Source: Plantactinospora mayteni
GTDB lineage: Bacteria; Actinomycetota; Actinomycetes; Mycobacteriales; Micromonosporaceae
DNA length: 64,000 nt
Reading direction: 5' to 3'
Assembly: GCF_016862935.1 (NCBI RefSeq)
Contig: NZ_BONX01000045.1
Location: 1-64,000 of the forward strand
Part shown: positions 2,192 through 44,922 of the stretch, piece by piece
Layout of the letters: every line of letters begins with the position of its first letter
Numbering within the stretch: the stretch's first letter is position 1
Notes under the pieces: generated by a model
Seen by the model: the letters and a program-made list of their open reading frames with translations, nothing else
What the model was told of the DNA's origin: nothing
The model's database searches: none
Program-made: the position numbers and the translations under genes

Positions 2192-2383
2192 TCAGGCGCT
2201 GCAACTCGTCGTCGAGGTGGTGCTGCTGCACGTGCTGGTCGTGCCGGAGGACGAGCAGGAGGCGAGGATCGCCTCCGAGGCGTCCGCGTAGTCGGAGACG
2301 GAGAACGTCTCCGACTCCAGCTCCAGCAGCTCCTCGGCGAGGGAGGCGAGATCGCCCTGCGACTGGCCGAATTCGTTGACCAT
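2192..2383 (-). CDS. Thiazolylpeptide/thiopeptide-type RiPP precursor peptide
   Basis: 63-aa precursor. Residues 1-41 form an acidic leader containing LELESETFSVSDYADASEA, which resembles leaders of thiazolylpeptide-type bacteriocins. It is followed by a C-terminal core of about 22 residues (from about residue 42) made almost only of Ser, Thr and Cys, with three Cys and one Gly (begins SCSSSGTTSTC, ends TTSCSA). The start is the ATG at 2383 because AAGGAGG stands 4 nt before it; a longer in-frame extension upstream has no such site. The core offers substrates for azole formation by the neighbouring YcaO enzyme and for Ser/Thr dehydration; the dehydratase and any [4+2] cyclase are not in this window. 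A linear azol(in)e peptide is the alternative product class. Confidence 0.85.
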   Translation of the reverse strand: MVNEFGQSQGDLASLAEELLELESETFSVSDYADASEAILASCSSSGTTSTCSSTTSTTSCSA

Positions 2384-2535
2384 GGATCCTCCTTGGCGGA
2401 TAGTGCCGGCACGGATGGTGCCGGCGAAAAGCGGCGGCACGATCGGTGCCACCCCCATCCCACCGGACGGCGCTCACGAGCCGGTCGTCGTCCGGCTGTC
2501 AATCCGCTCACCACTGTTGTCAGCGCCCCGGCACG
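2384..2535. promoter_or_regulatory. Divergent promoter region, precursor / M20 amidohydrolase
   Basis: This 152-bp gap separates the divergently read precursor and M20 genes and must hold both promoters. A TTGACA is present on the minus strand at 2502-2497, but no convincing -10 follows at 17-18 nt, so it is only a hint. GTGCCGGC occurs twice around 2403-2424. Confidence 0.4.
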
Positions 2536-3834
2536 ATGAGCGCTGATCCGTCCGTGGCGCACCGGGCCGCCGCGATCCTCGCCGACTCCCGACCGGTGAC
2601 CACCCAGGCCGCGGCGCTCTATCTCGACCTGCACGCCCACCCGGAACTCTCCGGCGCCGAGCGGCGCACCGCCGGGCAGTTGGCGGCCTGGCTGGCGCAC
2701 GACCGGCTGCGGGTGGTCCGGGACGTCGGCGGGCACGGCGTGGTCGGAGTACTGGAGAACGGGCCGGGGCCGTCGGTCCTGCTGCGGGCCGAACTCGACG
2801 CCCTCCCGGTGGCCGAGCGGACCGGACTGCCGTACGCCAGCACCGTGACCGGGATCGACCCGGACGGCCGCCCGGTGCCGGTCGCGCACGCCTGCGGCCA
2901 CGACCTGCATCTGGCGGCGCTGGCCGGTGCCGCCCGACTGCTGGCCGGCGCGCGGGACCGCTGGCGGGGAACCCTCCTGGTCGTCGGGCAGCCGGCCGAG
3001 GAGACGCTGTACGGTGCCCGGGCGATGCTCGACGACGGGCTGTACCAGCGGTTCGGACGGCCGGACGCGGTTCTGGCCCAGCACACCGCGCCCATTCCGG
3101 CTGGGATGGTGGCGCACGGTGCCGGTGCCATGCTCGCGGGCAGCAGGACGTTCGAGGTGGTCATCCATGGCCGGGGCGGGCACGTGGCGACCCCTCACCT
3201 GACCGTCGACCCGATCGCCGCCGCCGCCGGGGTGATCCTGCGCAGCCAGGCGATCGTGGCCCGGGAGGCGGCCCCCGGGGAACCGGCGGTGGTCTCGGTC
3301 GGCTCGGTACGGGCCGGCAGCCGGAGCAACATCGTGCCGGACGAGGCCCGACTCGACGTCACGCTGCGGGCGCTCCGGCCGGACCTGCTGGACCGGCTCG
3401 CCGCCGCGCTGGACCGGATCGTGCGCGCGGAGTGCGCGGCGGCCGGCTGTACCGAGCCGCCCGAACTCCGGGTCGTGGCGGAGTCGCCGGTCACCGAACC
3501 GGACCCCGCCCTCACCGCGGCCGTACGCGCCGGTCACGAGGAACTCCTGGGGACGTCCCGGGTCACGACCTGGCCGCCGTCGCTGGCCACCGAGGACTTC
3601 CCGTACTTCGCGACCGACGGCGTCCCCGTCGCGTACTGGATGCTCGGGTCGGTGGGGCCACGGCAGTGGTCCGCCGGTCGGGCCGGTGGGGAGCGGGGCG
3701 CGGGACCGGCGGTGATCCCGGGGAACCACTCGCCCCGGTTCGCCCCGCAGCTCGCCGGTACCCTGTCGACCGGGATCGCCGCCCTGGTCACCGCCGCGCT
3801 GACCCGACTCGGGCCGGGGGCGCCACCGGACTGA
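2536..3834 (+). CDS. M20 family amidohydrolase / carboxypeptidase
   Basis: 432-aa dinuclear-metal amidohydrolase of the M20D (IAA-amino acid hydrolase / aminoacylase-like) type. Metal-site motifs are HACGHD at residues 118-123 and PAEET near 155; a dimerisation-domain signature GRGGHVATPH follows, and a C-terminal H in GNHSPRF completes the site. No signal peptide is seen, so it is cytosolic. The ATG at 2536 gives the start expected for the family; no strong ribosome site precedes it. It is divergent from the RiPP precursor. M20 enzymes deacylate N-acyl amino acids or trim peptides, so a role in leader processing or in producing a tailoring acyl donor is possible but unproven; a general aminoacylase is the simple alternative. 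Confidence 0.82.
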   Translation: MSADPSVAHRAAAILADSRPVTTQAAALYLDLHAHPELSGAERRTAGQLAAWLAHDRLRVVRDVGGHGVVGVLENGPGPSVLLRAELDALPVAERTGLPYASTVTGIDPDGRPVPVAHACGHDLHLAALAGAARLLAGARDRWRGTLLVVGQPAEETLYGARAMLDDGLYQRFGRPDAVLAQHTAPIPAGMVAHGAGAMLAGSRTFEVVIHGRGGHVATPHLTVDPIAAAAGVILRSQAIVAREAAPGEPAVVSVGSVRAGSRSNIVPDEARLDVTLRALRPDLLDRLAAALDRIVRAECAAAGCTEPPELRVVAESPVTEPDPALTAAVRAGHEELLGTSRVTTWPPSLATEDFPYFATDGVPVAYWMLGSVGPRQWSAGRAGGERGAGPAVIPGNHSPRFAPQLAGTLSTGIAALVTAALTRLGPGAPPD

Positions 3835-3915: not shown

Positions 3916-5799
3916 TCAGGCCGAGACCTCCAGCTCGGTACGCACCGTTGTCTGGTCCACATCGGACGTCCGTACGGTGATGCCCACCTCCCAGCGGCCG
4001 GGCAGCGGCAGCGTGACGGTACCGAGGTAGTGGCCCGGCCCGGCGTTCGTCAACGGCACGGTGAGTGGACCGAGGTCCTTTGTGGGCAACCGCAGTGACA
4101 CCCGAAGTTCCGGTACCGCCTTGGCGCGGCCGGTCGGGTCCAGCACCGAGACGTGCACGGTCGCCGGGCCGACCCGACGCGGCAGCATGTCCACCGCCAG
4201 CAGGCCGGTGGCGGCAGCTCCGGAGCCGGTGTCGAACGGGATCATCCCCCGGGGCGCCGGGGCGCCGCCGGTCTGGCCACCGGCGGTAACCGGCCGACCG
4301 TCGCCGACCGTCGCGGCGGACCCGTCGACGACTCCGGCCGGACCGCGCTGGCGGGCCTCGTACACCACCTTGGCCGGCGGCGTGGCGACCAGTGCCGCGG
4401 TCAGACCCAGTACGGCCAGCCCGAGACCGCCTTCCATCGACACCCGACGTCGGAAGTGGTAGAGCTGGTGCGCGTCGGGCCCGCCCGGGTTGCCCCGCCG
4501 CCGGCCGGGCCCGGCCACGGGATACTGCCGGTGCACCCACGAACGGGCGAGACCGCCCAGGGCGAGCAGCAGGAAGACGACGCTCACCTTCGCCAGCAGC
4601 AGCCGGCCGTAGGAGGTCTCCAGCAGCGCCGGGAGGGTCCCGACCTGGCGCCAGAGCTGGAACAGGCCGGTGACGACGAGCAGCGCCACGCTGATCACCG
4701 CGCTGCGGGAGAAGGCCGGAACGGCGGTCCGCATCGCGGCGAGGTCCCGAGCCGGCAACAGCGCCCCGACGAGCACCGCCAGGCCGCCGAGCCAGACGGA
4801 CATCGCGACCAGGTGGACCACGTCGGCGGCGAGCGCCAGCGCGGTGAACTCCCCGGCGGCGCTGTGGTTGGCCAACCCCCACGTCGCGGCCAGGGCGGCA
4901 CCGGCGCAGAGGACCGCGACCGGCGGCAGCCATCGGGTACGTCGGTCCCGGTCCTCGTCCCGGGCGGCCGGCCGGCGCAGCAGCAGTACCAGCGCGGGTG
5001 CCAGCAGGAGCAGCAGCCCCACCCGGGCCAGCAGGGCCACGCCGAGCCGGGTGTCTCCGGTGGCGGCCAGCAGGTCGGGGTCGAACGCACGACCCAACGG
5101 CAGGTCCGCCGAGTATGGTCCGTAGCCGAGGAAGGCACCGACAGCGCCCGCCAGCGAGGCTGCCCAACCGGTCCAGAGCAGGCGGCGTACGCCGCGTCGG
5201 GCGGCACCGGCCGGCCAGCCGTGACTGACGAAGAAGGCGGCGCCGACCAGCAGCGCCAGGGCCAGGAAGGCGACCCACCGGACGATGCCGTACACCGGGC
5301 CGGTGGCGGAACCGGACGACCGCGCCGCCGGCGGTCCACTCGGCGCGGTGCCGCCGAGCCCGGCGCTGCCGACCGTGAACGTGTACGCGCCGCTCACCGG
5401 ATGACTGTCCGCGGAGACGACGCGCCAGGAGACGGCGTAGCCACCGTCGGGCAGCTCGGCACGCAGCCGTACGTCGACCGTGGTCCCGTCCCCGGATGGA
5501 TGGCCCGGCTCATCGGTGGCCACGAGTTCGCCCCCGGAGTCGTACAGCCGGAACCCGTCCTTCGGTACGCTGACCGGCTCGGTGAACTGTAGTTGCAGCC
5601 GCTGCGGCGACCGCTGGTAGACCTGCCCGTCGGCCGGGGTGGACCGGATCAGGTCGGCGTGCGCCCAGGCCGGTGTCGGGGCGGCGAGCCAGGCCAGCAC
5701 GGTGCCGACCAGGCCGGCCAGCACGGTGGCCACCAGCCTGGCCAGCCTGCCCCGGGTGCTGGGCACGGCGGTGGGTGGACGGAGCGGATGACGGGTCAT
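3916..5799 (-). CDS. CopC-CopD fusion copper transport/resistance protein
   Basis: 627-aa membrane protein. A signal sequence (residues ~15-45, ending AWA) precedes a CopC domain that starts HADLIRSTPADGQ, the usual mature N-terminus with a copper-binding His, and continues to the conserved SADSHPVSG. A CopD-type membrane domain follows with several helices. A charged loop and a C-terminal extracytoplasmic beta-rich domain of ~180 residues complete it. The start is the ATG at 5799 with AAGGA 8 nt upstream; an ATG five codons earlier has no Shine-Dalgarno. CopC binds periplasmic/exported copper and CopD moves it across the membrane. It lies 201 bp downstream of the multicopper oxidase on the same strand, so it is probably a copper-handling partner. 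Confidence 0.9.
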   Translation of the reverse strand: MTRHPLRPPTAVPSTRGRLARLVATVLAGLVGTVLAWLAAPTPAWAHADLIRSTPADGQVYQRSPQRLQLQFTEPVSVPKDGFRLYDSGGELVATDEPGHPSGDGTTVDVRLRAELPDGGYAVSWRVVSADSHPVSGAYTFTVGSAGLGGTAPSGPPAARSSGSATGPVYGIVRWVAFLALALLVGAAFFVSHGWPAGAARRGVRRLLWTGWAASLAGAVGAFLGYGPYSADLPLGRAFDPDLLAATGDTRLGVALLARVGLLLLLAPALVLLLRRPAARDEDRDRRTRWLPPVAVLCAGAALAATWGLANHSAAGEFTALALAADVVHLVAMSVWLGGLAVLVGALLPARDLAAMRTAVPAFSRSAVISVALLVVTGLFQLWRQVGTLPALLETSYGRLLLAKVSVVFLLLALGGLARSWVHRQYPVAGPGRRRGNPGGPDAHQLYHFRRRVSMEGGLGLAVLGLTAALVATPPAKVVYEARQRGPAGVVDGSAATVGDGRPVTAGGQTGGAPAPRGMIPFDTGSGAAATGLLAVDMLPRRVGPATVHVSVLDPTGRAKAVPELRVSLRLPTKDLGPLTVPLTNAGPGHYLGTVTLPLPGRWEVGITVRTSDVDQTTVRTELEVSA

Positions 5800-6000
5800 C
5801 GGGTGTCCTTCCATAGTGGAGGGCGCGGGTGGTACCGGCCCGGTCGGGCGTTGGCCGGAACAGGGCCGGTACGCGGAGCCGTCGGGCCGGCCGCGCCGAG
5901 GTAGGTCGGGCGGCCGGACCCGACATCCGGTCGGGCGACCACGGCCACGCTCCGTCGAGCCGGATCACGGTCGCGGTGAGACCGGATGTTCCGATGGAGG

Positions 6001-7371
6001 TCAGGCGGTTACGTTGACGACCGTCACCAGGCCGATCATCCCGTCCGGTCCTTCGGAGTGCGAGAAGATGTGGCAGTGCAGCAGCCACTTCCCGACTTCC
6101 TTCGGCTGGAAGATGATGTCGAAGGTCTGCCCCGGCGCCACGGTCAGCGTGTCCGCCGCGTACGGCGTGCCGAGCTTGGCGCCGTCCTGGGCGACCACCT
6201 GGAATGACATGCCGTGCAGGTGCATCGGATGCATCTGCTCCGGGCCGGTGCCGACCAGTCGGATGTGCACCCGTTGGCCGACCCGCGCGGCCAGTGGCGC
6301 CGTCGCCGGGTACGACTTCCCGTTCAGGGTGAAGCCGTTGGAACCGTCCCCGATGGTCAGGGTGTAGTGCCGGTCGGCGGTGATGTCACCCAGGGTCGGC
6401 GTGACCAGCAGGGCGCCGTACAGGCCCTTGCCGACCTGGTTGCCGCCCATGTGCGAGTGGTACCAGTGGGTGCCGGTGGTCTTGACCGTCCACTCGTAGG
6501 TGTAGGTCTCCCCCGGCATGATGTGCGGCTGGGTGATGTCCGGGACCCCGTCCTGCGGGTTCGGCAGTTCCATGCCGTGCCAGTGCACCGCGGTGTGCTC
6601 CGGCAGGTTGTTCTGCACGATGAACCGGAGCCGGTCCCCCTCGTTGACCTTGAGAGTGGGGCCGGGGACGATGCCGTTGAACGCGTACGCCGGCCGTACC
6701 ACCCCGGCCGACACCTCCAGGTCGAGCGGTGCCATGCAGAGTTTGAACACCTTCACCCCGCCGACCAACTCGAAGGTCGCCAGCCGGGTGCCGTCGCCCT
6801 GTTCGGCGCCGACCGTCGGGTTCTGGCACGGCGCGCCGCCCGGCGGCGGTCCGGTGGGGGTCGCGGTCGGGGGCGTGGTGGGACCGACCGTCGGCGTGGC
6901 GGTGGGGCCGACCGTCGGGCTCGGGCCCGGCGTGGTGGGTCTGGGTGTGGTCGGGGTCGGCGCGGCGGTGGTCGGCGGCGCGGTGCCCGCGTTGATGGTG
7001 CCGAGCATGTACGGATGGTTGCCGCAGAAATAGGAGTACGACCGGGCCGCGCTGACCGTCACGGTGAAGGTCGCGCCGGGCGGCATGTCCGGAGACGTGA
7101 AGTCGCCCCGGATCATGTGCACCGTTCCGTCGGTCTCCTGGTTGACGAAGGTCACCGTGTCGCCGGGGGCCACGTTGAGCACCTCCGGGCTGAACGCGAA
7201 GTTCCGGATCGCGACCGTGTGGTTGGCTGCCATCGCCATCCTCGGGGCGAAGATCGCCGCGCCGGCCGCGACGACCGCGAGCACCAGCAACACCGCCAGG
7301 ACGAGCCGGCGTACCGGTGGAGACGTACTCCTCAACACCTGCCGGACGCCCGGCAAGCTCAGGTCGGACAT
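6001..7371 (-). CDS. Exported cupredoxin-multicopper oxidase fusion
   Basis: 456 aa. A membrane anchor or signal helix (residues ~25-48) is followed by a plastocyanin-like domain with a type-1 copper loop CGNHPYM, then a Pro/Thr-rich linker of about 50 residues. A two-domain multicopper oxidase / nitrite-reductase-like unit comes next, with all expected copper motifs: HWHGME, HWYHSH, HPMHLHG and HCHIFSHSEGPDGM. The start ATG at 7371 follows GAGGAGA at proper spacing. Likely activity is oxidation of Cu(I), other metals or phenolics outside the cell. The extra N-terminal cupredoxin would serve as an attached electron shuttle (inference). It sits between copC-copD and a second cupredoxin protein on the same strand. 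Confidence 0.88.
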   Translation of the reverse strand: MSDLSLPGVRQVLRSTSPPVRRLVLAVLLVLAVVAAGAAIFAPRMAMAANHTVAIRNFAFSPEVLNVAPGDTVTFVNQETDGTVHMIRGDFTSPDMPPGATFTVTVSAARSYSYFCGNHPYMLGTINAGTAPPTTAAPTPTTPRPTTPGPSPTVGPTATPTVGPTTPPTATPTGPPPGGAPCQNPTVGAEQGDGTRLATFELVGGVKVFKLCMAPLDLEVSAGVVRPAYAFNGIVPGPTLKVNEGDRLRFIVQNNLPEHTAVHWHGMELPNPQDGVPDITQPHIMPGETYTYEWTVKTTGTHWYHSHMGGNQVGKGLYGALLVTPTLGDITADRHYTLTIGDGSNGFTLNGKSYPATAPLAARVGQRVHIRLVGTGPEQMHPMHLHGMSFQVVAQDGAKLGTPYAADTLTVAPGQTFDIIFQPKEVGKWLLHCHIFSHSEGPDGMIGLVTVVNVTA

Positions 7372-7460
7372 GGGGTCTCTCCTCATCTACCCTGGTGAGA
7401 GCGCGCGGCATCGCGGACAGCCGACGCTGGCTGTCCGGCAGCACGCGATGTCGTCCGCCA

Positions 7461-10270: not shown

Positions 10271-11347
10271 TCAACCGCGGGCCGGGCGCAGCACGAGCTG
10301 CCGCGGTGCCTGCGCCGGGTCGAAGACCGGGCGACGGTCGATCCGGGCACGAACCTCGTCGGAGCCGAACCGGTAGTCGATACGGCGCACCACCTCGGCC
10401 CAGTCCGTCCTGGTACGGATGCCACGGATGCACTCCTGCACCCACGGGTCGTCCCACCGGCTGCGGGAACGTTCCCACAGGACGTACGGGTCCTCGGTCA
10501 GCAGGCTGCCGACCGTGCCCTCGTAGATCGGCATCGCCCGTACCCTGCCGTCCGGCTCGATCTCCAGGGGCCGGAAGTCGGGGTGGCTGGCGATGTAGTC
10601 GGGGTGCATCTGCACGCCGAAGTTGTCCGTGGTGCTGACGGTGACCGTCGCCGGTGCGGCTTGGGTGAGCCGCTGCCTCGTCCCCTCGTCGACCAGTGCC
10701 GCGACCTGCTCGTCGCTCAGCATCTCGTGCTCGCCGTACGACACCCGGCTGGCCAGGCCGGTGGGCACCACCGCGCCGAACGCCACCTCGCTCAGGTGTG
10801 GGAACCGTGGCGCGACCGAGGCGCACATCTCGTCGAGCTGGTGGTAGTTGCTCCGGACCACCACGTTGTCGATGCCGAAGCGCAGCGGCGACTCCCCGGC
10901 CGCGACCCGCCGGGCGCACTCCGCGTCGAGCAGGGCCAGCGCGGCCATGCACCGGTCGAAGGAACCGGCCCGGCCACGGATCCGGTCGTGCACCTCCGCC
11001 GTCGCGCCGTCGACGCTGACCACGATCTTGGCGACGATGGGGGCCAGATCCCGTACGGTCTGCTCCGGCAGTGACCATCCGCTGGTGTAGAGGAAGACCC
11101 GTACGCCCGCCGCCGCGAACCGTTCCACCACCTCCACGATGCGCGGCAGGGTGAGCGGTTCACCCCCGCAGAGCGTGATCATGATCGGCCGGAAGGTGAT
11201 CAGCGCGTCCGCCACCTTCAGCATCTCCTCGTGGCTGAGGTTCTGCGGACGGCGCCGGCCCGACTCGGTGTAGCAGTGCGAGCAGCGCAGTGGACAGGCG
11301 AACGTGACGTCCCAGATGAGGACGTTGGGACCTGCGTCGACATTCAT
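10271..11347 (-). CDS. Radical SAM enzyme, probable peptide-modifying type
   Basis: 358 aa. The [4Fe-4S]/SAM motif is C18-x3-C22-x2-C25 in FACPLRCSHCY, followed by the GGEP motif (LCGGEPLTLP) and a partial TIM barrel (SVDGATAEVHDRIRG). The C-terminal part looks like a SPASM/twitch fold that has lost its cluster cysteines (IEPDGRVRAMPIYEGTVGSLLTED). Members with this layout (MftC-, PqqE-, AlbA-like) commonly modify ribosomal peptides. It is read away from the 10-codon gene at 11618, across a 270-bp gap, next to two exporters and a LAL regulator. GGGAG precedes the ATG at 11347. No longer peptide substrate is visible nearby, so the tiny gene is the candidate substrate (inference). Confidence 0.85.
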   Translation of the reverse strand: MNVDAGPNVLIWDVTFACPLRCSHCYTESGRRRPQNLSHEEMLKVADALITFRPIMITLCGGEPLTLPRIVEVVERFAAAGVRVFLYTSGWSLPEQTVRDLAPIVAKIVVSVDGATAEVHDRIRGRAGSFDRCMAALALLDAECARRVAAGESPLRFGIDNVVVRSNYHQLDEMCASVAPRFPHLSEVAFGAVVPTGLASRVSYGEHEMLSDEQVAALVDEGTRQRLTQAAPATVTVSTTDNFGVQMHPDYIASHPDFRPLEIEPDGRVRAMPIYEGTVGSLLTEDPYVLWERSRSRWDDPWVQECIRGIRTRTDWAEVVRRIDYRFGSDEVRARIDRRPVFDPAQAPRQLVLRPARG

Positions 11348-11617
11348 GGGACGGGTCTCCCGACAGGATCGGCAGTTCGGTCGCCGGAACTGTACGGGCG
11401 CCGAACCGCCCCGGGCATCGGCGACGACTACGCAAGGCCCACGACCGGATACGCAGGCCGGGAGCCCCGACGACGTGCGCGTACCGGCCGGCTGTCGGTG
11501 GTTCCGGCCGCGCGGTTGCGTACCCGACTACCGATTCCCCGGTGCGCCGGGGCACCTAGCGTTCTGGCGTGGCGGCCGCCACGGTTCACTGCCCGTCGCC
11601 AGTAGAGGAGGTGGATC

Positions 11618-11650
11618 ATGCGCGCTTACCCGCCGGTCGACGCCTCGTAA
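11618..11650 (+). CDS. Ten-codon ORF with strong RBS: candidate micro-precursor or leader peptide
   Basis: Encodes MRAYPPVDAS. The ribosome site GAGGAGG stands 6 nt before the ATG, stronger than those of most genes here, and an in-frame TAG at 11603 shows it is not part of a longer ORF. The stop TAA is followed 18 nt later by a 13-bp hairpin and then by the twin ABC exporter genes. Two readings fit: an ultra-short RiPP precursor modified by the divergent radical SAM enzyme (a five-residue precursor gene is known from the biarylitides, which use a P450), or a leader peptide controlling exporter expression through the hairpin. Whether it is translated is inferred from the RBS alone. Confidence 0.5.
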   Translation: MRAYPPVDAS

Positions 11651-11668
11651 GAGGGCAGCTACCTGATG

Positions 11669-11699
11669 GCGGTGGCCACCCCGCGCGGGTGGCCACCGC
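11669..11699 (+). terminator. Attenuator-like hairpin between micro-ORF and ABC exporters
   Basis: Perfect 13-bp stem with a 5-nt loop CGCGC; the arms contain GGTGGCCACC, itself a palindrome, twice. It lies between the 10-codon gene and the GTG start of the first exporter. It could act as a partial terminator that raises short-transcript levels over exporter mRNA, or as an attenuator. No U-tract is present. Confidence 0.6.
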
Positions 11700-11743
11700 G
11701 GGGCTGGACGACCGAAACCGTCGACGTCGCAAGGAGTGTGCCC

Positions 11744-13582
11744 GTGTCGACCTCACCGACAGCCGGCGTGACCCGGCGCCCCGGCAGCGTGTCGGCGCTC
11801 GTCCGTGAGCTGCCGCGCGTCAGCACCCCGCTCACCGTGGCGCTCGTCGCGCTCGTCGCCGCGCAGGTGGCCGGCGTCGTACTGCTGCCACTGGCGATCG
11901 GGCGCCTGGTCGTGGCGCTGACCGCCGACGGGGGCCCGGCGGCGTCCCGGGAGGCGTGGACCGGGCTCACCATGCTGGCGCTGGCGCTCGTCCTGGACAT
12001 CGCCCTGGAGCCGATCCGGGCGATGGTCACCGCGAAGCTGAGTACCGCGGTCGACGGCAGCCTGGCCCAACGCACCGTCGAGGGTGCACTGCGCCCGGCC
12101 GGGGTCGCGCACCTGGACGACCCGGACGTCGCCGACCAGATCGAGCAGGCGCGCGGGGTCGGGATCGGCGCGCACGCCCCCGGGCAGGCCGTCAACGCGC
12201 TGGCCTACCTGGTCCCGCTCCGCCTCACCGGGTTGGCGTCCGCGGTCCTGCTCGGCTGGGCCGGGCAGTGGTGGATGCCGGTCGTCCTCGGTGCCGCCTG
12301 GTTCGTCACCGGCCGCTGGCAGGAGAAGGAGATGGCCCGCGCCGTCGTCGCCAACACCGCCAGGACCGTCCAGCTCCGGCACGCGGCGTACCTGCGCGAC
12401 ATCGCGGTCACCGCGCCGTCGGCCAAGGAGCTGCGCCTGTTCGGCCTGCACCACTGGCTCGTCGAACGCTTCACCCGGGAATGGTGGGACGGCATCGTCG
12501 AGATGCGCCGAAAGACCACCGACGGCCGGCGACACCTGGCGGCGAGCGCGCTGCTGCTGGCGGCACACGTCGTGGTGGTGGTGCCGCTGGCGTACGGGGC
12601 CAGCAACGGCGAGCCGTCGGTCGGGCACCTGACAATCGCCCTCCAGGCGCTGCTCGGGCTCTTCGCCCTGGGGTTCACCGGCGACCTGCAACGGCGGCTG
12701 CACCTGGCCAGTGCGGCGGTACCGCCGGCGCTCGCCGTGAGTGCGCTCGGCACCCCGGTGACCGAGGTCGCCGGGCCGGCCGCGACCGGGCTGCCACACC
12801 GCGAGATCCGCTTCGAGCGGGTCTCCTTCGGATATCCCGGCGCCCGCCGCCCGGTCGTCGACAACCTGGACCTCGTCATTCCGGCCGGGTCATCGCTGGC
12901 GATCGTCGGGGACAACGGCGCCGGCAAGAGCACCATCACCAAACTGCTGGCCGGGCTCTACCGGCCGGACGCCGGCCTGATCCGCGTCGACGGGCGGGAC
13001 CTGCACGACTACGACCTCGCCAGTTGGCGCCGGCAACTGGCCGTGGTGTTCCAGGACTTCGGGCGGTACCCGTTCTCGGTGCGCGACAACATCGCCTTCG
13101 GCGCGGTCGAGGCGACCGCCACCAGCGACGGGGTGGTCGAGGCGGCCCGGCTCGGTGGCTTCCTCGGCGTCGAGCAGGGGCTGGCGGACGGCTGGGACAC
13201 CCCACTGACCAGCGCTTACACGGGTGGGACGGAGCTGTCCGGCGGGCAGTGGCAGCGGCTGGCGCTGAGCCGGGCGCTCTATGCGGTGCGGCAGGGTGCC
13301 AAGGTCCTCGTCCTGGACGAGCCCACCGCGCACCTGGACATCGAGGCGGAGTACGAACTCTACGCACGGTTCCTGGAGATCACCGCCGGCATCACCACGA
13401 TCCTGGTGTCGCACCGGTTCGCCACCGTCCGGCTCGCCGAGCGGATCGCCGTGGTGCAGGGCGGCCGGGTGAGCGAGTACGGCAGCCACGACGAGTTGCT
13501 CGCGGCCGACGGCCGGTACGCCCAGATGTTCCGGGTGCAGTCCGCGCCCTTCACCGATTCCGCAGGAGGCCGTCGTGGGTAG
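11744..13582 (+). CDS. ABC exporter half-transporter (RamA/RamB-like), first of pair
   Basis: 612-aa membrane-ATPase fusion. An N-terminal six-helix exporter domain (to about residue 320) precedes the nucleotide-binding domain with Walker A GDNGAGKST, signature LSGGQWQRLALSRAL, Walker B VLVLDEPTAHLD and switch His in LVSHRF. The start is the GTG at 11744, 7 nt after AAGGAG; an earlier in-frame ATG at 11666 would run coding sequence through the hairpin and lacks a ribosome site. Its 3' end overlaps the next half-transporter by 8 bp, so the two are translated together and probably form a heterodimer. By analogy with RamAB and other RiPP exporters it would export the cassette's product (inference). 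Confidence 0.9.
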   Translation: MSTSPTAGVTRRPGSVSALVRELPRVSTPLTVALVALVAAQVAGVVLLPLAIGRLVVALTADGGPAASREAWTGLTMLALALVLDIALEPIRAMVTAKLSTAVDGSLAQRTVEGALRPAGVAHLDDPDVADQIEQARGVGIGAHAPGQAVNALAYLVPLRLTGLASAVLLGWAGQWWMPVVLGAAWFVTGRWQEKEMARAVVANTARTVQLRHAAYLRDIAVTAPSAKELRLFGLHHWLVERFTREWWDGIVEMRRKTTDGRRHLAASALLLAAHVVVVVPLAYGASNGEPSVGHLTIALQALLGLFALGFTGDLQRRLHLASAAVPPALAVSALGTPVTEVAGPAATGLPHREIRFERVSFGYPGARRPVVDNLDLVIPAGSSLAIVGDNGAGKSTITKLLAGLYRPDAGLIRVDGRDLHDYDLASWRRQLAVVFQDFGRYPFSVRDNIAFGAVEATATSDGVVEAARLGGFLGVEQGLADGWDTPLTSAYTGGTELSGGQWQRLALSRALYAVRQGAKVLVLDEPTAHLDIEAEYELYARFLEITAGITTILVSHRFATVRLAERIAVVQGGRVSEYGSHDELLAADGRYAQMFRVQSAPFTDSAGGRRG

Positions 13583-15416
13583 CTGGCTGAGCGCCGCCCG
13601 CCTGGTGGTGGGCGTCGCGGTCCGGGCGGACCCGCGACGCGCGGTGCTGGTCCTGGTGCTCGTCCCGCTGTTCAACATCATCGCGGCGGCGCAGGCGCTG
13701 GGGCTGCGCAGCATGGTCGACGGCGCGGTCGCCCGGCAGCTCACCGAGGCGCTGACCGGTGGACTCGTCCTCGTCCTCGTCACCGTCTTCGTGCACCAGG
13801 CGAGCGCGGTCGCCACCGACCTGCGGCAGGTACTCCAGCAGCGGGTCGGGCTCGAGTTCGACCGCCGCCTGATGGCCCTGTGCTCCGGGCCCGCCCACGT
13901 CAGCCACTACCACGACCCCGAGTTCCTCGACACGGCCGAGCTGGTGAGGCAGCGCCGGACCGAATTCGGCGGCGCGTTCGCGGCGCTGGTCGAGAACGCC
14001 GGCCTGCTGGCCCGGTTCGTGGCCGCGGTGGTGCTGATGGCCCTGGTCAGTCCGATGCTGGCCCTGCTGCCGGTGTTCATCCTGCCGCTGGCCCTCGCCA
14101 TCCGCTGGCAGGCGACCATCGTCGCCGCGGCCGAGGTGGCCGGCGCCGAGGCCGACCGCCAGCGTGCCGCCCTGCTCACCCTGGCCACCGATCCGGCCGC
14201 CGCCCCCGAGGTCCGGCTCTACCGGCTGGGCGGCGAGATCGCCACCCGGCACCGGGCGGCCTTCGCCGTCTCGGCACGCCGTCGGGAAGCGGCCCGGGCT
14301 CGTGGCGCCGTCGCGATGGCGGCCGGTTGGCTGCTGTTCTGCGTCGCGCTCGTGGCCGGGCTGTACCTCGTCACCCGGTCCGTGCTCTCCGGCACCGCCT
14401 CGGCCGGCGAGGCCGTCCTGGTGCTGCTGCTCGGCACCCGGCTGGTCGGCGCCACCACCGGGCTGAGCTTCCTGATCGGCTGGCTGCGCCGTTCGCTGCA
14501 CACCGTGGCGCTCTACCAGCGGCTGGCCGGATATCCGCACCCGGGTGCCGCCGGCGGACGGAGCCAGGAGCTGCCCGAGCGCGGCGACCTGGTCCTCGAC
14601 GGCGTCACTTTCCGGTACCCCGGCGAGGCGACGCCGGCGCTGGGCCCGATCGACCTCCGGCTGCCCGCCGGGGCCACCGTCGCGGTCGTCGGTGACAACG
14701 GTGCCGGCAAGTCCACCCTGGTCGCGCTGCTGGCGGGTCTCTACCCGCCGTCGACCGGGCGGGTCACGTTCGGCGGGCAGGACCTGGCGCAGGTGGATCC
14801 GGAGCTGTGGCGGAGCCGGGTCACCGCGACCTTCCAGGACTTCTGCCGGTTCGAGCTGCTGGCCAGGGAGTCGGTCGGGGTCGGCCGGCTCGGCGCGATC
14901 GACGACCGGGAGGCGGTCGGCAGCGCACTGGAATCGGCGGGCGCCGCCACCATCGTGGCCGAACTGCCCGCCGGCCTCGACAGCCGGCTCGGCCGGACGT
15001 TCCCGGACGGTACCGATCTGTCGTCCGGGCAGTGGCAGAAGCTCGCGCTCGCCCGGGGCCGGATGCGGACCGCGCCCACGGTGGTGCTGCTCGACGAGCC
15101 GGCGGCGAGCCTCGACCCGGACAGCGAAGCCGAACTGCTGCGCAGGTATCTCGCGCCGAACGGGTCGACCGCCGACGCACCGATCACCGTCGTCGTGTCG
15201 CACCGGCTCACCACGGTACGCGACGCGGACCTGATCGTGGTGCTGCACGAGGGCCGGATAGTCGAGTACGGCCCGCACGCCGAGCTGCTCGACCGGGCCG
15301 GCCGCTACGCGGAGATGTACGCGCTGCACGCCGCCGCGTACGCCGACGGGCCGGCGGTGCTCTCGGCCGCGGCGGCCCGGGGCGAGGTGGCGGCAGGTTC
15401 GGGTCAGACCAGGTAG
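13575..15416 (+). CDS. ABC exporter half-transporter (RamA/RamB-like), second of pair
   Basis: 613 aa, same layout as its neighbour: six-helix domain, then Walker A GDNGAGKST, signature LSSGQWQKLALARG, Walker B VVLLDEPAASLD and VVSHRL. The GTG at 13575 follows AGGAGG by 5 nt and overlaps the end of the first gene by 8 bp. In the Walker B region Glu follows the Asp (LLDEP), so this half site looks catalytically competent. A short Ala-rich tail ends 13 bp inside the convergent regulator gene. Confidence 0.9.
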   Translation: MGSWLSAARLVVGVAVRADPRRAVLVLVLVPLFNIIAAAQALGLRSMVDGAVARQLTEALTGGLVLVLVTVFVHQASAVATDLRQVLQQRVGLEFDRRLMALCSGPAHVSHYHDPEFLDTAELVRQRRTEFGGAFAALVENAGLLARFVAAVVLMALVSPMLALLPVFILPLALAIRWQATIVAAAEVAGAEADRQRAALLTLATDPAAAPEVRLYRLGGEIATRHRAAFAVSARRREAARARGAVAMAAGWLLFCVALVAGLYLVTRSVLSGTASAGEAVLVLLLGTRLVGATTGLSFLIGWLRRSLHTVALYQRLAGYPHPGAAGGRSQELPERGDLVLDGVTFRYPGEATPALGPIDLRLPAGATVAVVGDNGAGKSTLVALLAGLYPPSTGRVTFGGQDLAQVDPELWRSRVTATFQDFCRFELLARESVGVGRLGAIDDREAVGSALESAGAATIVAELPAGLDSRLGRTFPDGTDLSSGQWQKLALARGRMRTAPTVVLLDEPAASLDPDSEAELLRRYLAPNGSTADAPITVVVSHRLTTVRDADLIVVLHEGRIVEYGPHAELLDRAGRYAEMYALHAAAYADGPAVLSAAAARGEVAAGSGQTR

Positions 15417-18049
15417 GTGTCCGGGGCGGTCGGCATCCCCGGACCGTCCTGCACCGCACGGCTGAACCAGTCCGACCGCAGTTCACGACGGGAACCGATG
15501 CCGAGTTTCCGGTACACCCGGGCCAGATGGCTCTCCACGGTCCTGGCCGACACGACCAGCCGGGTCGCGATCTCCCGATTGGGTAGCCCGGTGGCGGCCA
15601 GGGCCGCGACCTCGTTCTCCCGGGCCGTCAGGGTCGGCGACGCCAGGTTCGGTGCGGGCAGACCGAGGGCAGTGCGGAGCCGACCGGCCAGCGCGACAGC
15701 CCCGGCGTAGTCCTGGTCGCGCCCGGACAACACCCTCGTGGCGGCCTCGGCCAGCCGCCACGCCCGCCGGTGCAGCCCCATCTCGGTGAGCCGGGTGGCC
15801 TGTTCGAGCAGGCCCGCACGGTCGCGGTCGAGCAACGCCAGTTCGCCGCGCGCCTCGGTCACCAGCCGGCCCGCCTCGACGTACCGGAGGCAGTGCGCGA
15901 CCCGGTCGGCCAGCGCGACCGGCCGGTCGGCGGGTGGCAGCCGCGCCGCCCAGGTCAGGTACTGCAACTCGACGCTCCAGCAACTCGCCGCGTGTGCCGC
16001 CGCCACCGCCTCCTCGAACCGCCGCCCGGCGGACCGGGTGTCGCCCCGGGCGGCGGCGATGGCCCCGGCGGCCCACGGCCCGAGCCCCGGCAGCACCGCC
16101 AGCCGATCCGGGGGGTCCAGGTCCAGCACCCGCTGCGCCTCGGCCGGCTGCCCGGTCGCGGCGAGCGACACGGCGAGCCACGCCGACGCCTCCGAGCGGA
16201 ACGGCCGGAACCCGACGGCCTGTTGCGCCAGTGCCTCGCGCAGCGGCTCGACGGCGCCGGGGTACTCGCCCCGGAGCAGCCGCGCGTATCCGACCAGCAG
16301 CGGCCAGTCGACGGCGCGCAGCCGGGTCCCGGGTATCGCCCCCGGTGGCCTCGGCCAGCGACCGAGGATCGGATCGGTGGCCGGCAGCGGCGCGCTGCCG
16401 TCCCGCCAGAGCCCGATCAGGGACAGCACCGCCGCGGCCAGGCCCGCCGTGTCCGGGGCCCGGACGCCGCCGGCATCCGCCAGCACCGCCGTACCGGCCG
16501 CAGCCGCCTCGTCGGTGCGGCCGACCAGGGCCAGCGCCAGGGTACGGGCGATCCGGCACCGTAGTGCGGACGAGCCGCCGGCGGAACCGGTGCCGGAGAG
16601 CCGGTCGGCGGCCCGGATGGCGTCGGCCGGGCGCTGGCCGACCAGCAGGACCAGCGCGTCGGCGCCGTCGACGGCGTCGAGGACCTCGGGTGCGGAGAGC
16701 GACGCGACGGCCCGGAGCGCCCGCAGGTCGGCGTGGGCCGACGCCGGGTCACGCTCCGTTGCGCAGCGGTGCAGGGCGAGCGCCGCCGAGAGTACGACGC
16801 GTCCGGTGGCCGAATGCTCGGACGCGGTCGCCTGGTGCAGTATCGACTGCGCCTCGCGGCCGGCACCCAGCTCGGCGAGCGCGTCGGCCAGTACGACGGT
16901 GGCGCGGGCGGACCGGTCCCGGCCGAACGCGACCCGGGCCAGCCGGAGCGCCTGCTCCGGACTGTGCGGGGACACCTGGCGGGCGGTATCCGTCAACACC
17001 GTGGCGGCGACCGGCGCACCCGCGGCCAGTTGCCAGCGGGCGACCGTGACCGGATCCGGTGTGCTACGACCGACCTCGCGCGCCGCCGCGACGAGCGCCG
17101 ACGCGACCCGACGCCGCCGGGCCGGTGACACCTGCGTCCAGACGATCGCCTGGAGCAACGGGTGGCCGAATCCCACCGACACCCCGTCCTCGGTGTCCGT
17201 GGTACGCAACAGGTCCAGATCCTCCAGCTCCTCGACGGCATCCGGCGCGACCCGGTCGATCAGCTCGATCGGCAGGTCGTCGCTCACGGCGACCGCCGCC
17301 AGCGCGTCCCGGTGGGTCGGGGTGAGCCGGTTGGGTTCGGGCAGGAACAGCTCGACCAGATGCGGTGGCACGTCGAGCGGACCACGCCACCACCACAGAC
17401 CCCGATCGTGCACCAGTCGACCGGTCTCGGTGCCGTGCCGGACCAGTTCGGTCGCCAGCCTCGGGTTGCCGCCGGTCCACTGGTAGACGAGCTGCACGGT
17501 GGTCGAGGCCACCGGGTGACCGAGCATCGCGTGCATCAGGGTCGCCGTCTCCGTCGGGTCCAGCGGTGGCAGGTCGACCCGACGCAGATGCCGGTCCTTC
17601 CACAGCGCCACTACGGCGTCGGGCGTCGCCACGTCCGCCCGGGTGGTGACCATCAGCCGGATCTGACCGTCGTGCGCGAGGCCGAGCAGGGTACTCGCCG
17701 ACCGGTCGTCCATCCAGTGCGCGTCCTCCACGACCAGCAGGGGCGTACGCGATCGTCCACGTCGTACCAGTTCGGCGCGGATCCTGCCCGGGACGAGGGC
17801 CGGGTCGCCGGTGACCGGAAAGAGCTGCCAGAACGGCCCGAACGGAATCGGACGTCCCGCCTCGGTGGCGGTGGTACGGGTCACCGCGTAACGGTCGGCC
17901 GACAGTTGCCGGGTCACGAGTTCGACGAGCGTCGTACGGCCGGTCCCCCGCTGCCCCACCAGCACGGCGCCCCGGTCGGTGGTCACCGCGGTGAGGATCT
18001 GCTGGACCAGCCCGGATCGTGCGACCAGCGGTGTCCGGATGCGGTCCAC
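15404..18049 (-). CDS. LAL-family (large ATP-binding LuxR) transcriptional regulator
   Basis: 881 aa. The N-terminal AAA/NACHT-like ATPase has Walker A VGQRGTGRTTLVE and Walker B LLVVEDAHW; a long helical, TPR-like Ala-rich middle follows. The C-terminal LuxR helix-turn-helix reads LTARENEVAALAATGLPNRE and continues to the recognition helix in SARTVESHLARVYRKLGIGSRRE. The start chosen is the GTG at 18049, 6 nt after GGGAGGGGG; in-frame ATGs at 18082 and 18193 lack such a site. It converges on the ABC exporter with a 13-bp overlap of the 3' ends and is the likely regulator of the radical SAM/exporter cassette, with an ATP-gated response to an unknown ligand. Confidence 0.88.
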   Translation of the reverse strand: MDRIRTPLVARSGLVQQILTAVTTDRGAVLVGQRGTGRTTLVELVTRQLSADRYAVTRTTATEAGRPIPFGPFWQLFPVTGDPALVPGRIRAELVRRGRSRTPLLVVEDAHWMDDRSASTLLGLAHDGQIRLMVTTRADVATPDAVVALWKDRHLRRVDLPPLDPTETATLMHAMLGHPVASTTVQLVYQWTGGNPRLATELVRHGTETGRLVHDRGLWWWRGPLDVPPHLVELFLPEPNRLTPTHRDALAAVAVSDDLPIELIDRVAPDAVEELEDLDLLRTTDTEDGVSVGFGHPLLQAIVWTQVSPARRRRVASALVAAAREVGRSTPDPVTVARWQLAAGAPVAATVLTDTARQVSPHSPEQALRLARVAFGRDRSARATVVLADALAELGAGREAQSILHQATASEHSATGRVVLSAALALHRCATERDPASAHADLRALRAVASLSAPEVLDAVDGADALVLLVGQRPADAIRAADRLSGTGSAGGSSALRCRIARTLALALVGRTDEAAAAGTAVLADAGGVRAPDTAGLAAAVLSLIGLWRDGSAPLPATDPILGRWPRPPGAIPGTRLRAVDWPLLVGYARLLRGEYPGAVEPLREALAQQAVGFRPFRSEASAWLAVSLAATGQPAEAQRVLDLDPPDRLAVLPGLGPWAAGAIAAARGDTRSAGRRFEEAVAAAHAASCWSVELQYLTWAARLPPADRPVALADRVAHCLRYVEAGRLVTEARGELALLDRDRAGLLEQATRLTEMGLHRRAWRLAEAATRVLSGRDQDYAGAVALAGRLRTALGLPAPNLASPTLTARENEVAALAATGLPNREIATRLVVSARTVESHLARVYRKLGIGSRRELRSDWFSRAVQDGPGMPTAPDTYLV

Positions 18050-18923
18050 GGATTGCCCCCTCCCTGCCGCGGACACCGACATCTCGCCAGATGTCGGCTG
18101 TGCCGTTCCGGAATGCGGTTCGGCTACACCGCCTGCGGATACTCCCGGACCGTTCCGAGGATTATTCCGGCGACATATCCGAATCGCGGTCAATCGACGC
18201 CCCCACGCCGACCGATCGATTCGACCCCCTGGATCTCGCCGCGCAGAAATGCCGCATTCGGATCCTTTCCAGCATCACGAGCGCTCACTCAATGCCGTTG
18301 GATTGGCCGACAATGCCAGGCGCGACTGGATCGCGACTGAACGCGGCCTGGATGGCCGGCACGCACCGATCCGACGGGCCGCGCCGACAACGCGCATGCC
18401 ATGCGGCACGATCCCTTCTCTCGGCCGGATCAACATGATCAACGACAGTTGGGGGCCGCGCAAGAACCGACCGACTCCGCAAATGCGTCATGCGCCCCTG
18501 AACTGATCCGTTCCGATCGCACAAAGTGGGCCGGAGCCAGTTTCACGTGCATGCCACGCTCGCCGTACCGTTCGGAACCCGGTCGCGGATGCTGACGTGC
18601 GGTTTTGCCCGGCGTCGAGAAAATCGTAGCGGTCATCCTGATGGCTGGGATGCTGTCTGTCGGATACCCAGCGGGCAGGGCCCGTACGGTGGGCCACCCG
18701 CCCAGGTGGGGCGGCCCGCAGGGCTGGACCGTCGGCGACAGCGCGAGGTCGCCGTGCGTCGCCGGCCGCTCGTCGGACGCTCGCCGGCCGCACGTCGGAC
18801 GCGGTCCTGCCGGCCGCACGTCGGACGCTCGCCGGACGCGGTCCTGCCGGACGCTCGTCGGACGCGGTTCTGCGGGCCGCACGGTCGACGCCGTGTCGGG
18901 GGGCGGCCCTAGACTGCGACGCC
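18050..18923. other. 870-bp non-coding stretch with an AT-richer half
   Basis: No convincing gene on either strand. The part next to the LAL gene (about 18100-18500) is visibly less GC-rich than its surroundings and may be a regulatory region for that gene. The distal part carries the degenerate tandem repeats listed separately, just before the promoter of the 130-aa/DUF4132 pair. Confidence 0.5.
18771..18893. repeat. Degenerate tandem repeats rich in CGTCGGACGC
   Basis: Units of about 10-30 bp are built from CGTCGGACGC, TCGCCGGCCGC and GGTCCTGCCGG in mixed order, with four copies of GTCGGACGC. They lie directly upstream of the 130-aa gene. The repeats are imperfect and their function is unknown. 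Confidence 0.65.
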
Positions 18924-38478: not shown

Positions 38479-41400
38479 TCACTTGTAGTACCCGCCGCCG
38501 AACAGGTTGGCGTCCATCTCGAACGGGTTGTAGCAGGCGCCGGGGTCGGTGCACTGTTGCCCACCCAGCTTGCGCGGGCCGAAGACCTGGAACGCCCGCT
38601 TCGACAGTTTGTCCATCTTGTCGTAGAGGGCGGCGAACCAGATCGGCCCGAACAGGGCCCACTGGGTGGCGTGCCGGACCTCGTGCGCGAGAAGCAGCTT
38701 GTCCTTGAGCGCGTCCTTGGTGGGCCGCTTGGTCAGGAAGATGTTCCCGTGGGTGTACTCCCGATCCTTGAACGTCCACTTCGCGCCGCCGCAGACCCAG
38801 AGCCCGCCGTTGACCTGGGAGCAGGAGGCGCCGGCCGCGGCCGCCTCCCCTCTGGCGGCGAGGGTGACGCCGGCGTTCTGCCGGGCCCGCCAGGTGGCGA
38901 ACTCCTTGCCGAGCACCGTCTGCACCAGTTCGCCGAGCGAGGTGATGAAGTTCGCCAGGGTCTGGATCCGGGCCTGGAGTCCCTTCTTGGCCTGGCTGCT
39001 CAGCGAGGACGCGCCCAGCTCCTTGTAGATGTCGTCGACCTCGGCGTTGATGATCGACGCGATCTTGTTGAGTTCGGTGCGGACCTCCTTGCTGTAGGGG
39101 TCCTTCTTGAGCAGGTCGACCAGCTTCGTCAGGATGTCGTACAGCGCGTCCGGGTCACGGAACGCCTGCTTCATCAGCTTCTTCAGCTCGGCCTGGAGCT
39201 GCTTCTGCTGCTCCTTCTTCGTCTTGCGCCCGTCCGGGTCGCTGAACGAGGTCGGATTGTTCTCCGCGTACGCGTAGCCCTGGAGTTGTTGCGGATCCTC
39301 GACGTCGGTGACCGGGTCGGCGGAGATGAACCGGCCGATCGCCGGGTCGTATTCGCGGGCCCCGAGATGGGTCAGCCCGGTCGACGCGTCGCGCTGCCCG
39401 CCGACGAAGCCCCGCTCGTCCGGCCACGTCGGGGTCGCGCCGCGCGGCGCCCCGAACGGCAGGTGCCGGCGCACGGTCACGGCCAGCGACGCCGCGTCGA
39501 TCGCCAGATCCGCGGTGCCGTGCAGGTCGGTGGCGACCCAGGTCAACCCGGCCGGGGTACGCACCGCGACCGTCTCGCCGCCGAACCGGTACGAGCGGGT
39601 GCCGGTGACCGCACCGGTGCCCGAGTCGGCGCGCAGCTCCATCCCGTCCAGGTAGAGGGTGGTGCCGCCGGGGTCGCGGCGGAGCAGCCGGTTGCCGTCG
39701 GCGTCGTAGACGAAGCTGGTCACCGCGCTGCCGGCCGTCACCGTGGCCAGGTGCCCCTCGGCGTCCCAGGTCAACGCCTGGCCGGGCCGCGCGGTGGTGT
39801 TCCCGGCGGCGTCGTAGGAGTAGGAGTCCGTACCCGGGCCGCCCGGACCGGTCCGGGTCACCGTGCGTACCGTGTGCGGCTGCGCCGTGCCGGCGGCCGG
39901 ATAGCCGTAGCTGGCCGCGCTGTCGCCGCCGGCGGCGTGCCGCACCTCGGAGAGCCGGTTCCCGGCCGCGTCGTAGCTGTAGTCGTGCCAGTACGGTGCC
40001 GGGCCGCCCAGCGCCGACGTGCTCGGTGCGGCGGCGCAGCCACCGGTCGGTGTCCAGGCCGTCACCAGCCGGCGCAGGTGGTCGTAGCGGAAGCACTGGG
40101 TGTCTGCCGCGCCGCCCGCCGGGGTGTCGGTGACCGAGCGCAGGTTGCCGGCCGGGTCGTAGTCGTAGCGCCGGTCCGCGACCGACGGCTGGCTCGCCGA
40201 CTCCCGGGTCACCTGGGCCCGCACCACCCGCCGGGTCGCCGGGTCGTAGCCGAACGTCTGCCACACCTGTGCCCCGGCCGCGCCGAACGTCTGCTCCAGC
40301 GGCTCCGACAGCTCGGTGTAGCGGGACCCGGTGACGTAGCCGGCCAGTCCGGTCAGGGTCGAGGAGAGCCCGAGCGGGGTGTAGCCGAGGGTCAGCGTCT
40401 CGTCGGGCAGCCCGCCGAGGGTGGTCCGGCCCTCCACGAACGGCATCCGCACCGTGCCGACCTGGCCGGCGTCGTTGTAGGTGAGCCGGTTCTGGTAGCG
40501 CCCGGCCAGTCCGTTCTCCACCGCCGGGATCGTCACGGCGGTGCCGGTCGGCCGGCCCGCCTGGTCGTAGCCGAGTACCTCGGTGGTGTACGCGTGGCCG
40601 TCGAGGTAGCGGGTGCTGGTCGCCGGCAGGCCCACCCCGCCCGGGGCGGTGTCGTAGCTCCACGACGCCAGCCGGCTCCCGTCGAGACTGCCCGCGTACG
40701 CCCCGATCTTGCGGCCGGCGTCGTCGTAGTCGTACGCGACGGTCTGGCCGCGTCCGTCGGTGGTGGAGACCAGCCGGTCGTCCTCGTCGTAGACGTAGTT
40801 GGTGGTGCCGGCGTCCGGGTCCTCGGTGCTGGTCTTCCGGCCCCGCAGGTCGTAGCCGTACCGCCAGACGTTACCGGCCGGGTCGGTCACCGAGGAGAGC
40901 TGCCCGGCCCGGGTGTACGTGTAGCGGGTGGCGTCGTACGCCCCGGTCGGCGCCCCGCCCGAATACTGGCGCAGCTCGACCATCTTCCCCTCCACGTCGA
41001 GGATCCGGGTCGTCGCCGTCTCCCCGTCCGGCGGGTCGACCGAGACCCGGTCCCCGGCGTACGTCGTCGTGCTGCGCCACTGCTCCACCCCGTACGACCG
41101 CAGCGCTTCCACGGTCGGCCGGCTCGCCCCGTCGTAGCCGTACGTCGTCGCCGCCGGTACCGCCTCGTCGGCCGCCGAGGCAAGGGTGCCGGCCGGCGGG
41201 GACGAGTGGTAGTAGGGGGCGTTCTTCCGGGCCACCCGGCCCTGCGAGTCGTAGAGGACGTCGGTGACGATCCGACCCCCGGACGGCGACGGGTCCTGGG
41301 TCTGCCGCTCTCGCAGCAGCCCGTCCAGCAACAGATAGCTGGTGGTGTAGCCACCGTCGCCGCGCAGCGTGGCGGTGCTCACCACGCTCGGCCCGCCGGT

Positions 41401-44694: not shown

Positions 44695-44812
44695 GCCCGT
44701 CCTCCAGCCTCGCAAGACATCGACACCTGCAACGCTAGGCAGCCATCCGTCCATGGGCGCGCACATCGCGGCGCATACGAGCCGGGACGGCCGTCGGAGC
44801 GGGACCGGACGG

Positions 44813-44851: not shown

Positions 44852-44922
44852 GTCGGGTCAGGGTTCCGTCCACGCCCAGGTCGTCGAACTGGGCCGGTCA
44901 GGGCGGGTCGGGTTGAGTCGGG

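Follow-up and report, generated by a model that had tools for sequence, protein, structure and literature searches.

A ten-codon gene beside a radical SAM enzyme with lanthipeptide-linked relatives in Plantactinospora mayteni: a candidate leaderless RiPP precursor

What is the function of a gene of ten sense codons located between the gene of a radical S-adenosylmethionine (rSAM) enzyme and a pair of exporter genes? The question is raised by a 64,000-nucleotide stretch of the Plantactinospora mayteni genome (contig NZ_BONX01000045.1, positions 1 to 64,000, hereafter the window) in which such a gene encodes the peptide MRAYPPVDAS. We consider it probable that this tiny open reading frame (ORF) is the leaderless precursor of a ribosomally synthesized and post-translationally modified peptide (RiPP), which would be modified by the rSAM enzyme at Tyr4-Pro5, exported by two ATP-binding cassette (ABC) proteins, ABC1 and ABC2, and derived from a lanthipeptide ancestor. 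The support computed for this reading consists of the anatomy of the locus, its recurrence, the conservation of the frame and of Tyr-Pro, the covariation of a hairpin, the association of an aromatic/His-Pro pair ([YFWH]P) with the rSAM family and the nesting of the enzymes in a phylogenetic tree. The features of the locus are as follows.

10271-11347, minus strand: rSAM gene with a cysteine-less SPASM-like C-terminal part (sequence and domain match)
11429-11455: two TACGCA boxes (11429-11434 and 11450-11455), possible regulator sites, variable across the other loci
11517-11522, plus strand: TGCGTA box, putative promoter or regulator element, 38 nt ahead of CCTAGCnTT in all six loci
11555-11563, plus strand: CCTAGCGTT block, putative promoter element ahead of the tiny ORF
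11606-11611, plus strand: AGGAGG ribosome-binding site, 6 nt spacer to the ATG
11618-11650, plus strand: tiny ORF MRAYPPVDAS (ATG to TAA, 10 sense codons), proposed leaderless RiPP precursor
11669-11699, plus strand: 13-bp hairpin with a 5-nt loop (arms 11669-11681 and 11687-11699), between the tiny ORF and ABC1
11744-13582, plus strand: ABC1, half-size ABC exporter, putative GTG start at 11744 (listed ORF 11666-13582)
13575-15416, plus strand: ABC2, half-size ABC exporter, overlapping ABC1
15404-18193, minus strand: LAL-type LuxR regulator, convergent to the exporter genes, 5' end uncertain

This anatomy bears out a preliminary description of the locus, which had reported an rSAM gene with a CxxxCxxC motif and a cysteine-less tail, a divergent 33-bp gene with a strong Shine-Dalgarno (SD) site 6 nt before its ATG, a hairpin of 13 pairs, two overlapping half-exporters and a LAL regulator. 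The exporter genes overlap, the last position of ABC1 being 13582 and the first of ABC2 13575. Translation of ABC1 probably begins at GTG 11744 (residue 27 in the listed ORF), because the match begins at residues 17-36 in five of the six other genomes, G004 being the exception with a match from residue 1. The LAL protein carries a GerE/LuxR domain and an AAA_16 domain, the latter with a score exactly at the cut-off. The arrangement AGGAGG-N4-8-ATG occurs three times in the window, both strands counted; elsewhere it precedes one frame of 767 codons and one ORF of 63 codons. No LanB/LanC, LanM, LanKC or LanL was found in the shared unit or among 18 further ORFs of the window scanned with Pfam, and no cytochrome P450 was found in the window unit.

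The rSAM gene is present in five of the seven Plantactinospora genomes searched, each of which holds a tiny ORF at the same position (MRAYPPVDAS in three, MRAYPPVDAL in one and MSAYPPVDPA in one). In Actinorhabdospora filicis (G080), a sixth locus encodes MRKYPDVGA next to an rSAM enzyme 70% identical. The order LAL-ABC2-ABC1-tiny ORF-rSAM is complete in all six loci, and beyond the unit the other loci have no matches to the flanking genes of the window, save one 41% match to a distant window gene. Recurring in six genomes of two genera, the unit is beyond chance. At E<=1e-140, ABC1 matches 7 of 354 genomes of the family, which are the six tiny-ORF genomes and one further genome, G320, discussed below. 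No plasmid-borne relative was matched at E<=1e-20.

The tiny ORF itself is constrained in a selective manner. Met1, Tyr4, Pro5 and Val7 are invariant in the six peptides, the remaining positions vary, the ends drift and no peptide contains cysteine. The sole length change is one whole codon, in frame, and the stop is kept though its codon differs (TAA becomes TGA in G002). The loss or frameshift of the ORF in loci that keep the rSAM and exporters, named beforehand as the refuting outcome, was therefore not seen in any of the six. In comparison with A. filicis, 22 of the 33 ORF positions are identical, against 49% and 52% in the flanks; three Plantactinospora genomes show 94-97% identity over the ORF and 58-87% over its flanks. 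The alignment of homologous loci had been expected to reveal a short ORF with a strong SD and an invariant Tyr-Pro-Pro. The ORF, the SD and Tyr-Pro are indeed kept, whereas the second proline (Pro6) is replaced by Asp in A. filicis. Pro-Pro stalling as a conserved feature was rejected on the same ground, as Pro-Pro is not conserved. The preliminary description had also taken the decapeptide for the rSAM substrate, altered at Tyr4/Pro5-Pro6 or at the Asp-Ala-Ser end. The decapeptide stands as the putative substrate, Tyr4-Pro5 being its likely point of modification; the second proline and the Asp-Ala-Ser end are unlikely to be essential, given the Asp of A. filicis and the drift of the C-terminal end.

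Little room is left for a leader. In the window, a TAG in frame with the ORF stands 5 codons ahead of it with no start codon between, and in G002, another Plantactinospora genome, an in-frame stop lies 2 codons upstream, so that a longer precursor with a misplaced start is excluded for both. The closest in-frame start is at least 22 codons upstream in G003, G004 and G006. In A. filicis, an in-frame GTG occurs 2 codons upstream, inside the SD, and an ATG 5 codons upstream, before the SD. The tiny ORF of the window and that of G002 thus display no leader peptide, a usual though not universal part of RiPPs; a gene-encoded candidate precursor adjoining a putative peptide-modifying enzyme, also expected of RiPPs, is observed in all six loci as the tiny ORF and the rSAM gene.

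What the enzyme may recognize in so short a peptide is suggested by its relatives. The window rSAM displays CPLRCSHC, GGEP and a SPASM-like tail, EPDGRVRAMPIYEGTVG, devoid of cysteine, and belongs to the radical SAM superfamily (PF04055, 72.4 bits against a cut-off of 29.5). The auxiliary-cluster cysteines of SPASM/Twitch domains are absent, the three CxxxCxxC cysteines being the sole invariant ones in 17 sequences. The family as a whole is characterized by CPLRCxHCY[ST]ESGRR and a cysteine-free SPASM-like region, EPDGxxRAMxxYEGxVG; an extra cysteine, C175, is nearly invariant, with Ala in its place in A. filicis. Other Micromonosporaceae contain homologues of about 50% identity, and 29 of the 354 genomes match at E<=1e-20, five candidates having been scored per genome; ten weak partial matches (L024-L033, 38-40% over 134-177 residues) and a partial Methanothrix match (33%) were left out. 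Profile matches extend to a second actinobacterial family (30 of 341 genomes) and to a third (5 of the 297 genomes sampled). No NCBIfam model reached its cut-off for the seven family members tested, judged in part on the best 25 of 59 matches. The best NCBIfam match of the window enzyme, MftC (TIGR03962), scores 101.9 bits against a cut-off of 265, covers the rSAM barrel and ends at residue 176 of 358. Mycofactocin- or pyrroloquinoline quinone-like maturation was rejected because the scores are far under the cut-offs. In the PDB, the profile matched only rSAM enzymes with different functions, for the most part along the barrel (SkfB best at 9.1e-19, then cytosylglucuronate decarboxylase and PqqE). 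The family appears to be uncatalogued and, from the precursors described below, to read an aromatic (or His)-Pro pair at the core start. No description of the family, of the aromatic-Pro rule or of the decapeptide was found in the open-access literature, which does not establish absence from print.

The preliminary description had overlooked this wider family, which is mostly linked to lanthipeptides. A LanKC of more than 600 residues was called nearby in 41 of the 53 rSAM loci screened (L042-L057, L063-L066 and L100-L132). The LanKC of L045 was checked with Pfam (RamC_N, kinase and LANC_like domains), and the others are BLAST matches to the LanKC of L045 or L046. The precursors in rSAM-bearing clusters have several kinds of leader and carry [YFWH]-P at the apparent core start (GLYPC, ELYPC, SLWPC, ALFPC, KAHPC, AQWPC, KAWPC and GRWPQ, with ERWPD and AFPP in a further precursor type). 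A motif-blind scanner, based on a leader-like pattern and on the content of Cys, Ser/Thr and Arg, was run on 1.5 kb around LanKC genes. Precursors were found in 23 of the 41 rSAM-bearing loci and in 16 of the 25 rSAM-free ones (30 LanKC loci minus five bearing an rSAM), and [YFWH]P was present in 22/23 and 0/16 of these, respectively, with L127 as the single rSAM-bearing exception. Counted by unique last 25 residues, the figures become 21/23 and 0/19. The Fisher value of 4.5e-10 overstates independence because the loci are related. The label 'rSAM-free' rests on the survey of five candidates per genome, with G003, G053 and G342 carrying an rSAM elsewhere in the genome, and some rSAM-free precursor candidates, such as the second L169 peptide, look spurious. 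In a LanKC tree of 69 rows, built by a quick method with SH-aLRT as its only support measure, rSAM-bearing and rSAM-free enzymes interleave with six label changes, and supported branches force four of these. Two rSAM-free loci have precursor candidates devoid of the motif: L147, whose LanKC falls within a group of rSAM-bearing ones, and L160, whose LanKC is sister to that of L126. The tree thus meets the concern over relatedness in part, and the motif tracks the rSAM rather than the LanKC lineage. Motif-aware scans read by eye gave an aromatic/His-Pro peptide in 51 of 53 lanthipeptide-type or tiny loci (the window, L038-L053, L057, L063-L065 and L100-L132 without L128), a count biased upward as the motif itself was looked for. 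The gene caller, a home-made GC-bias script, missed real genes such as the L039 rSAM and the G320 ABC2, which were recovered by other searches.

Several of these clusters display features of their own. G080 holds, in addition to its tiny-ORF unit, a LanKC cluster in which another rSAM accompanies two LYPC precursors (L042 and L052). The further precursor type, MSTELLMEGADAYTSLAEVATV..., with an ERWPDQSY or EAFPPNSW motif and a C-terminal Cys, is found at L104:3571-8846 and L125:2148-2315; in L104 it adjoins luciferase-like, flavoprotein and M16 peptidase genes. At L057:8400-9279, the rSAM gene is cut to 86 residues and the precursor beside it, ending GLFPCPMTCKTSFA, is apparently intact, possibly a decayed cluster.

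A link between both kinds of loci is provided by G320, where a class I lanthipeptide cluster contains counterparts of the window proteins (rSAM 52%, ABC1 61%, ABC2 59% and LAL 43% identity) together with a LanB in two parts and a LanC. Its two precursors have cores starting AAYPPPTNGC... and AAYPCVSC.... The window unit thus equals the enzyme, exporter and regulator set of G320 minus the Lan enzymes, and its peptide, M-R-AYPP-VDAS, is little beyond the start of a G320 core. The same cluster encodes a single predicted protein (L043:10286-11758) with Flavoprotein (LanD-like) and lantibiotic dehydratase C-terminal domains. In the rSAM tree (n=57; L057 was left out of it but is included in the 53-locus count), the enzymes of the six tiny-ORF loci group as a single clade (100/100) inside the branch linked to lanthipeptides. 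Their neighbours are three enzymes of the presumably Streptomyces-like family f21, from clusters with AQWPC precursors (94/83, below the strong-support level of the tool); the G320 rSAM is not resolved as sister of the tiny-ORF enzymes. A divergent clade (L054-L056, L066 and L128, 100/100) is 36-44% identical where measured, with nonribosomal peptide synthetase (NRPS)-like neighbours in L054, L055 and weakly in L128.

The region upstream of the exporters contains a conserved hairpin and promoter-like boxes. The 13 hairpin pairs are held in all six loci, two of them through double changes that compensate each other, and wherever a single side has changed, a G-U pair results in the plus-strand RNA; the hairpin is therefore an RNA element of the plus-strand message covering the tiny ORF and the exporters. 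The 38-nt spacing from TGCGTA to CCTAGCnTT is constant even though A. filicis has these boxes at another distance from the ATG, so that transcription probably starts shortly ahead of the tiny ORF. No U-tract terminator or sigma-70 promoter was found by simple consensus, and no known RNA element by Rfam at E<=1 in 11340-11800. The folding of the whole 175-nt leader is not unusual (z -1.48, one minimum-energy fold).

In the proposed mechanism, the tiny ORF would be strongly translated and the rSAM would read Tyr4-Pro5 without a leader and modify the peptide there, which fits an enzyme family whose members occur alongside several unrelated leaders. Attack by a radical on the aromatic residue or on the adjoining proline could produce an Ar-Pro-X crosslink, another oxidation or an epimerization, and the product would leave through the ABC1/ABC2 pair. 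LAL may control the divergent promoters, and the hairpin following the ORF may damp exporter expression, holding precursor output above exporter output. The ancestor would be sought among lanthipeptide clusters with an rSAM, exporters and a regulator of corresponding kinds; LanB/LanC (or LanKC), leader and Cys/Ser rings would have been lost from these and the aromatic-Pro element retained.

A number of observations weigh against this proposal. In G002, the ORF is 82% identical with flanks at 80 and 82%, i.e. without excess conservation, and across Plantactinospora the ORF is conserved just somewhat above its flanks; in view of this weak contrast in G002, the case is not rested on within-genus conservation. 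An aromatic/His-Pro pair is expected by chance in about 5% of ten-residue stretches of ordinary protein. The [YFWH]P association is correlative and drawn among related loci; L064, at a contig end, and L127 yielded no motif peptide, the latter with a precursor candidate lacking it, and none of the five loci of the divergent rSAM clade yielded an aromatic-Pro peptide. The translation and modification of the decapeptide are inferred from sequence.

Such observations leave some space for rival explanations. The conservation modestly above the flanks in Plantactinospora and the promoter-like boxes nearby would suit an ORF that is not translated and conserved only as untranslated leader or promoter sequence. 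This is very improbable, since the SD, start, frame, stop and Tyr-Pro-x-Val persist in A. filicis where the flanks are about 50% identical, the stop survives the change from TAA to TGA and the conserved boxes sit upstream of the ORF. The sequence of short ORF with strong SD, conserved RNA hairpin and exporter genes is also what an attenuator would look like, in which the state of translation or Pro-Pro stalling would change how the RNA folds near the hairpin and regulate the ABC genes, while the rSAM would have a different substrate. We regard this as unlikely, though the least so of the rivals: Pro-Pro becomes Pro-Asp in A. filicis while Tyr-Pro is retained, Tyr-Pro is of the very kind tied to the rSAM family in precursors elsewhere, and no intrinsic-terminator-like site was found by simple consensus, with folding judged on one minimum-energy fold.

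The adjoining exporter pair and large LuxR-type regulator could instead serve an unmodified signal peptide, exported by ABC1/ABC2 and sensed, for instance, via LAL, with an unrelated small molecule as the rSAM substrate. The divergent rSAM branch, in which no RiPP precursor was found and some loci lie beside NRPS-like genes, indicates that the rSAM fold can serve other substrates. The tiny-ORF enzymes, however, belong to the precursor-linked branch and not to the divergent one, and the rSAM is retained with the ORF in all six loci while the flanks change, which makes a signal peptide quite improbable. The leaderless precursor modified at Tyr4-Pro5 is accordingly preferred. A broader proposal is favoured by a smaller degree of confidence, somewhat better than even: a new rSAM family for which a two-residue aromatic-Pro tag, and not a leader, would constitute the substrate code on class I/III lanthipeptides as well as, in Plantactinospora and Actinorhabdospora, on a free nona- or decapeptide, with a leaderless rSAM RiPP class having arisen as a lanthipeptide was reduced to its modified N-terminal element.

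Other parts of the window were also inspected. A CopC/CopD/FixH-domain protein and a multicopper oxidase (3916-7386) stand beside the rSAM unit and were not found adjoining it in the other five genomes. At the contig edge (9-3834), a YcaO protein (9-2060) and an M20 peptidase (2446-3834) flank the gene of a 63-residue peptide (2192-2383, minus strand) with an upstream AGGAGG site and a Ser/Thr/Cys-rich end, ASCSSSGTTSTCSSTTSTTSCSA; this region looks like a second RiPP cluster, of a thiazole/thiopeptide-like kind. A 2095-residue RHS-repeat protein adjoins a subtilase with P-proprotein domains at 38479-47562.

If correct, the proposal would describe an ultra-short leaderless rSAM RiPP, among the smallest gene-encoded natural product precursors, and a traceable shrinkage from a multi-enzyme lanthipeptide to a single modifying enzyme and ten codons. 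The aromatic/His-Pro pair offers a testable recognition rule for an uncatalogued rSAM family present in at least three actinobacterial families, on a substrate accessible by peptide synthesis. Genome mining that is blind to ten-codon ORFs could then overlook whole pathways.

Known systems share single traits with the window unit. MftC resembles its rSAM over the barrel, at a score that places the latter outside the mycofactocin maturases. An rSAM is reported to epimerize proline in carnazolamide (PMC10676384), but the near-invariant C175 of the window family is replaced by Ala in A. filicis. Triceptides, or three-residue cyclophanes, are made on aromatic-x-x motifs by SPASM-containing rSAM enzymes (PMC11002830). 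Tyr-Pro-Pro, Tyr-Pro-Asp and Trp-Pro-Asp could form a comparable i/i+2 link, whereas the window family is without SPASM cysteines. Biarylitides and myxarylin are pentapeptides whose Tyr is modified by a cytochrome P450 (PMC12951456). The ultra-short precursor with a Tyr is common to both, but the window unit has an rSAM, ten residues and no P450, and falls outside that class. In microcin C, a nucleotide is added at the C terminus by dedicated enzymes, among them the ThiF-like MccB, and no such enzymes were seen in the window unit. The likeness lies in a precursor gene of very few codons, that of microcin C encoding 7 residues with a product used without a leader (PMC6495379). Regarding lanthipeptides, rSAM genes in their clusters have been mentioned in general terms (PMC7268733), and noursin represents other LanKC chemistry with a listed cluster devoid of a window-type rSAM (PMC10206099). 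The window unit lacks the Lan dehydratase and cyclase, the leader and the core Cys accompanying Ser/Thr that define lanthipeptides. It is nevertheless with their class I/III clusters that it shares a homologous rSAM (about 50% identical) and the aromatic/His-Pro core start, and with that of G320 also ABC1, ABC2 and LAL.

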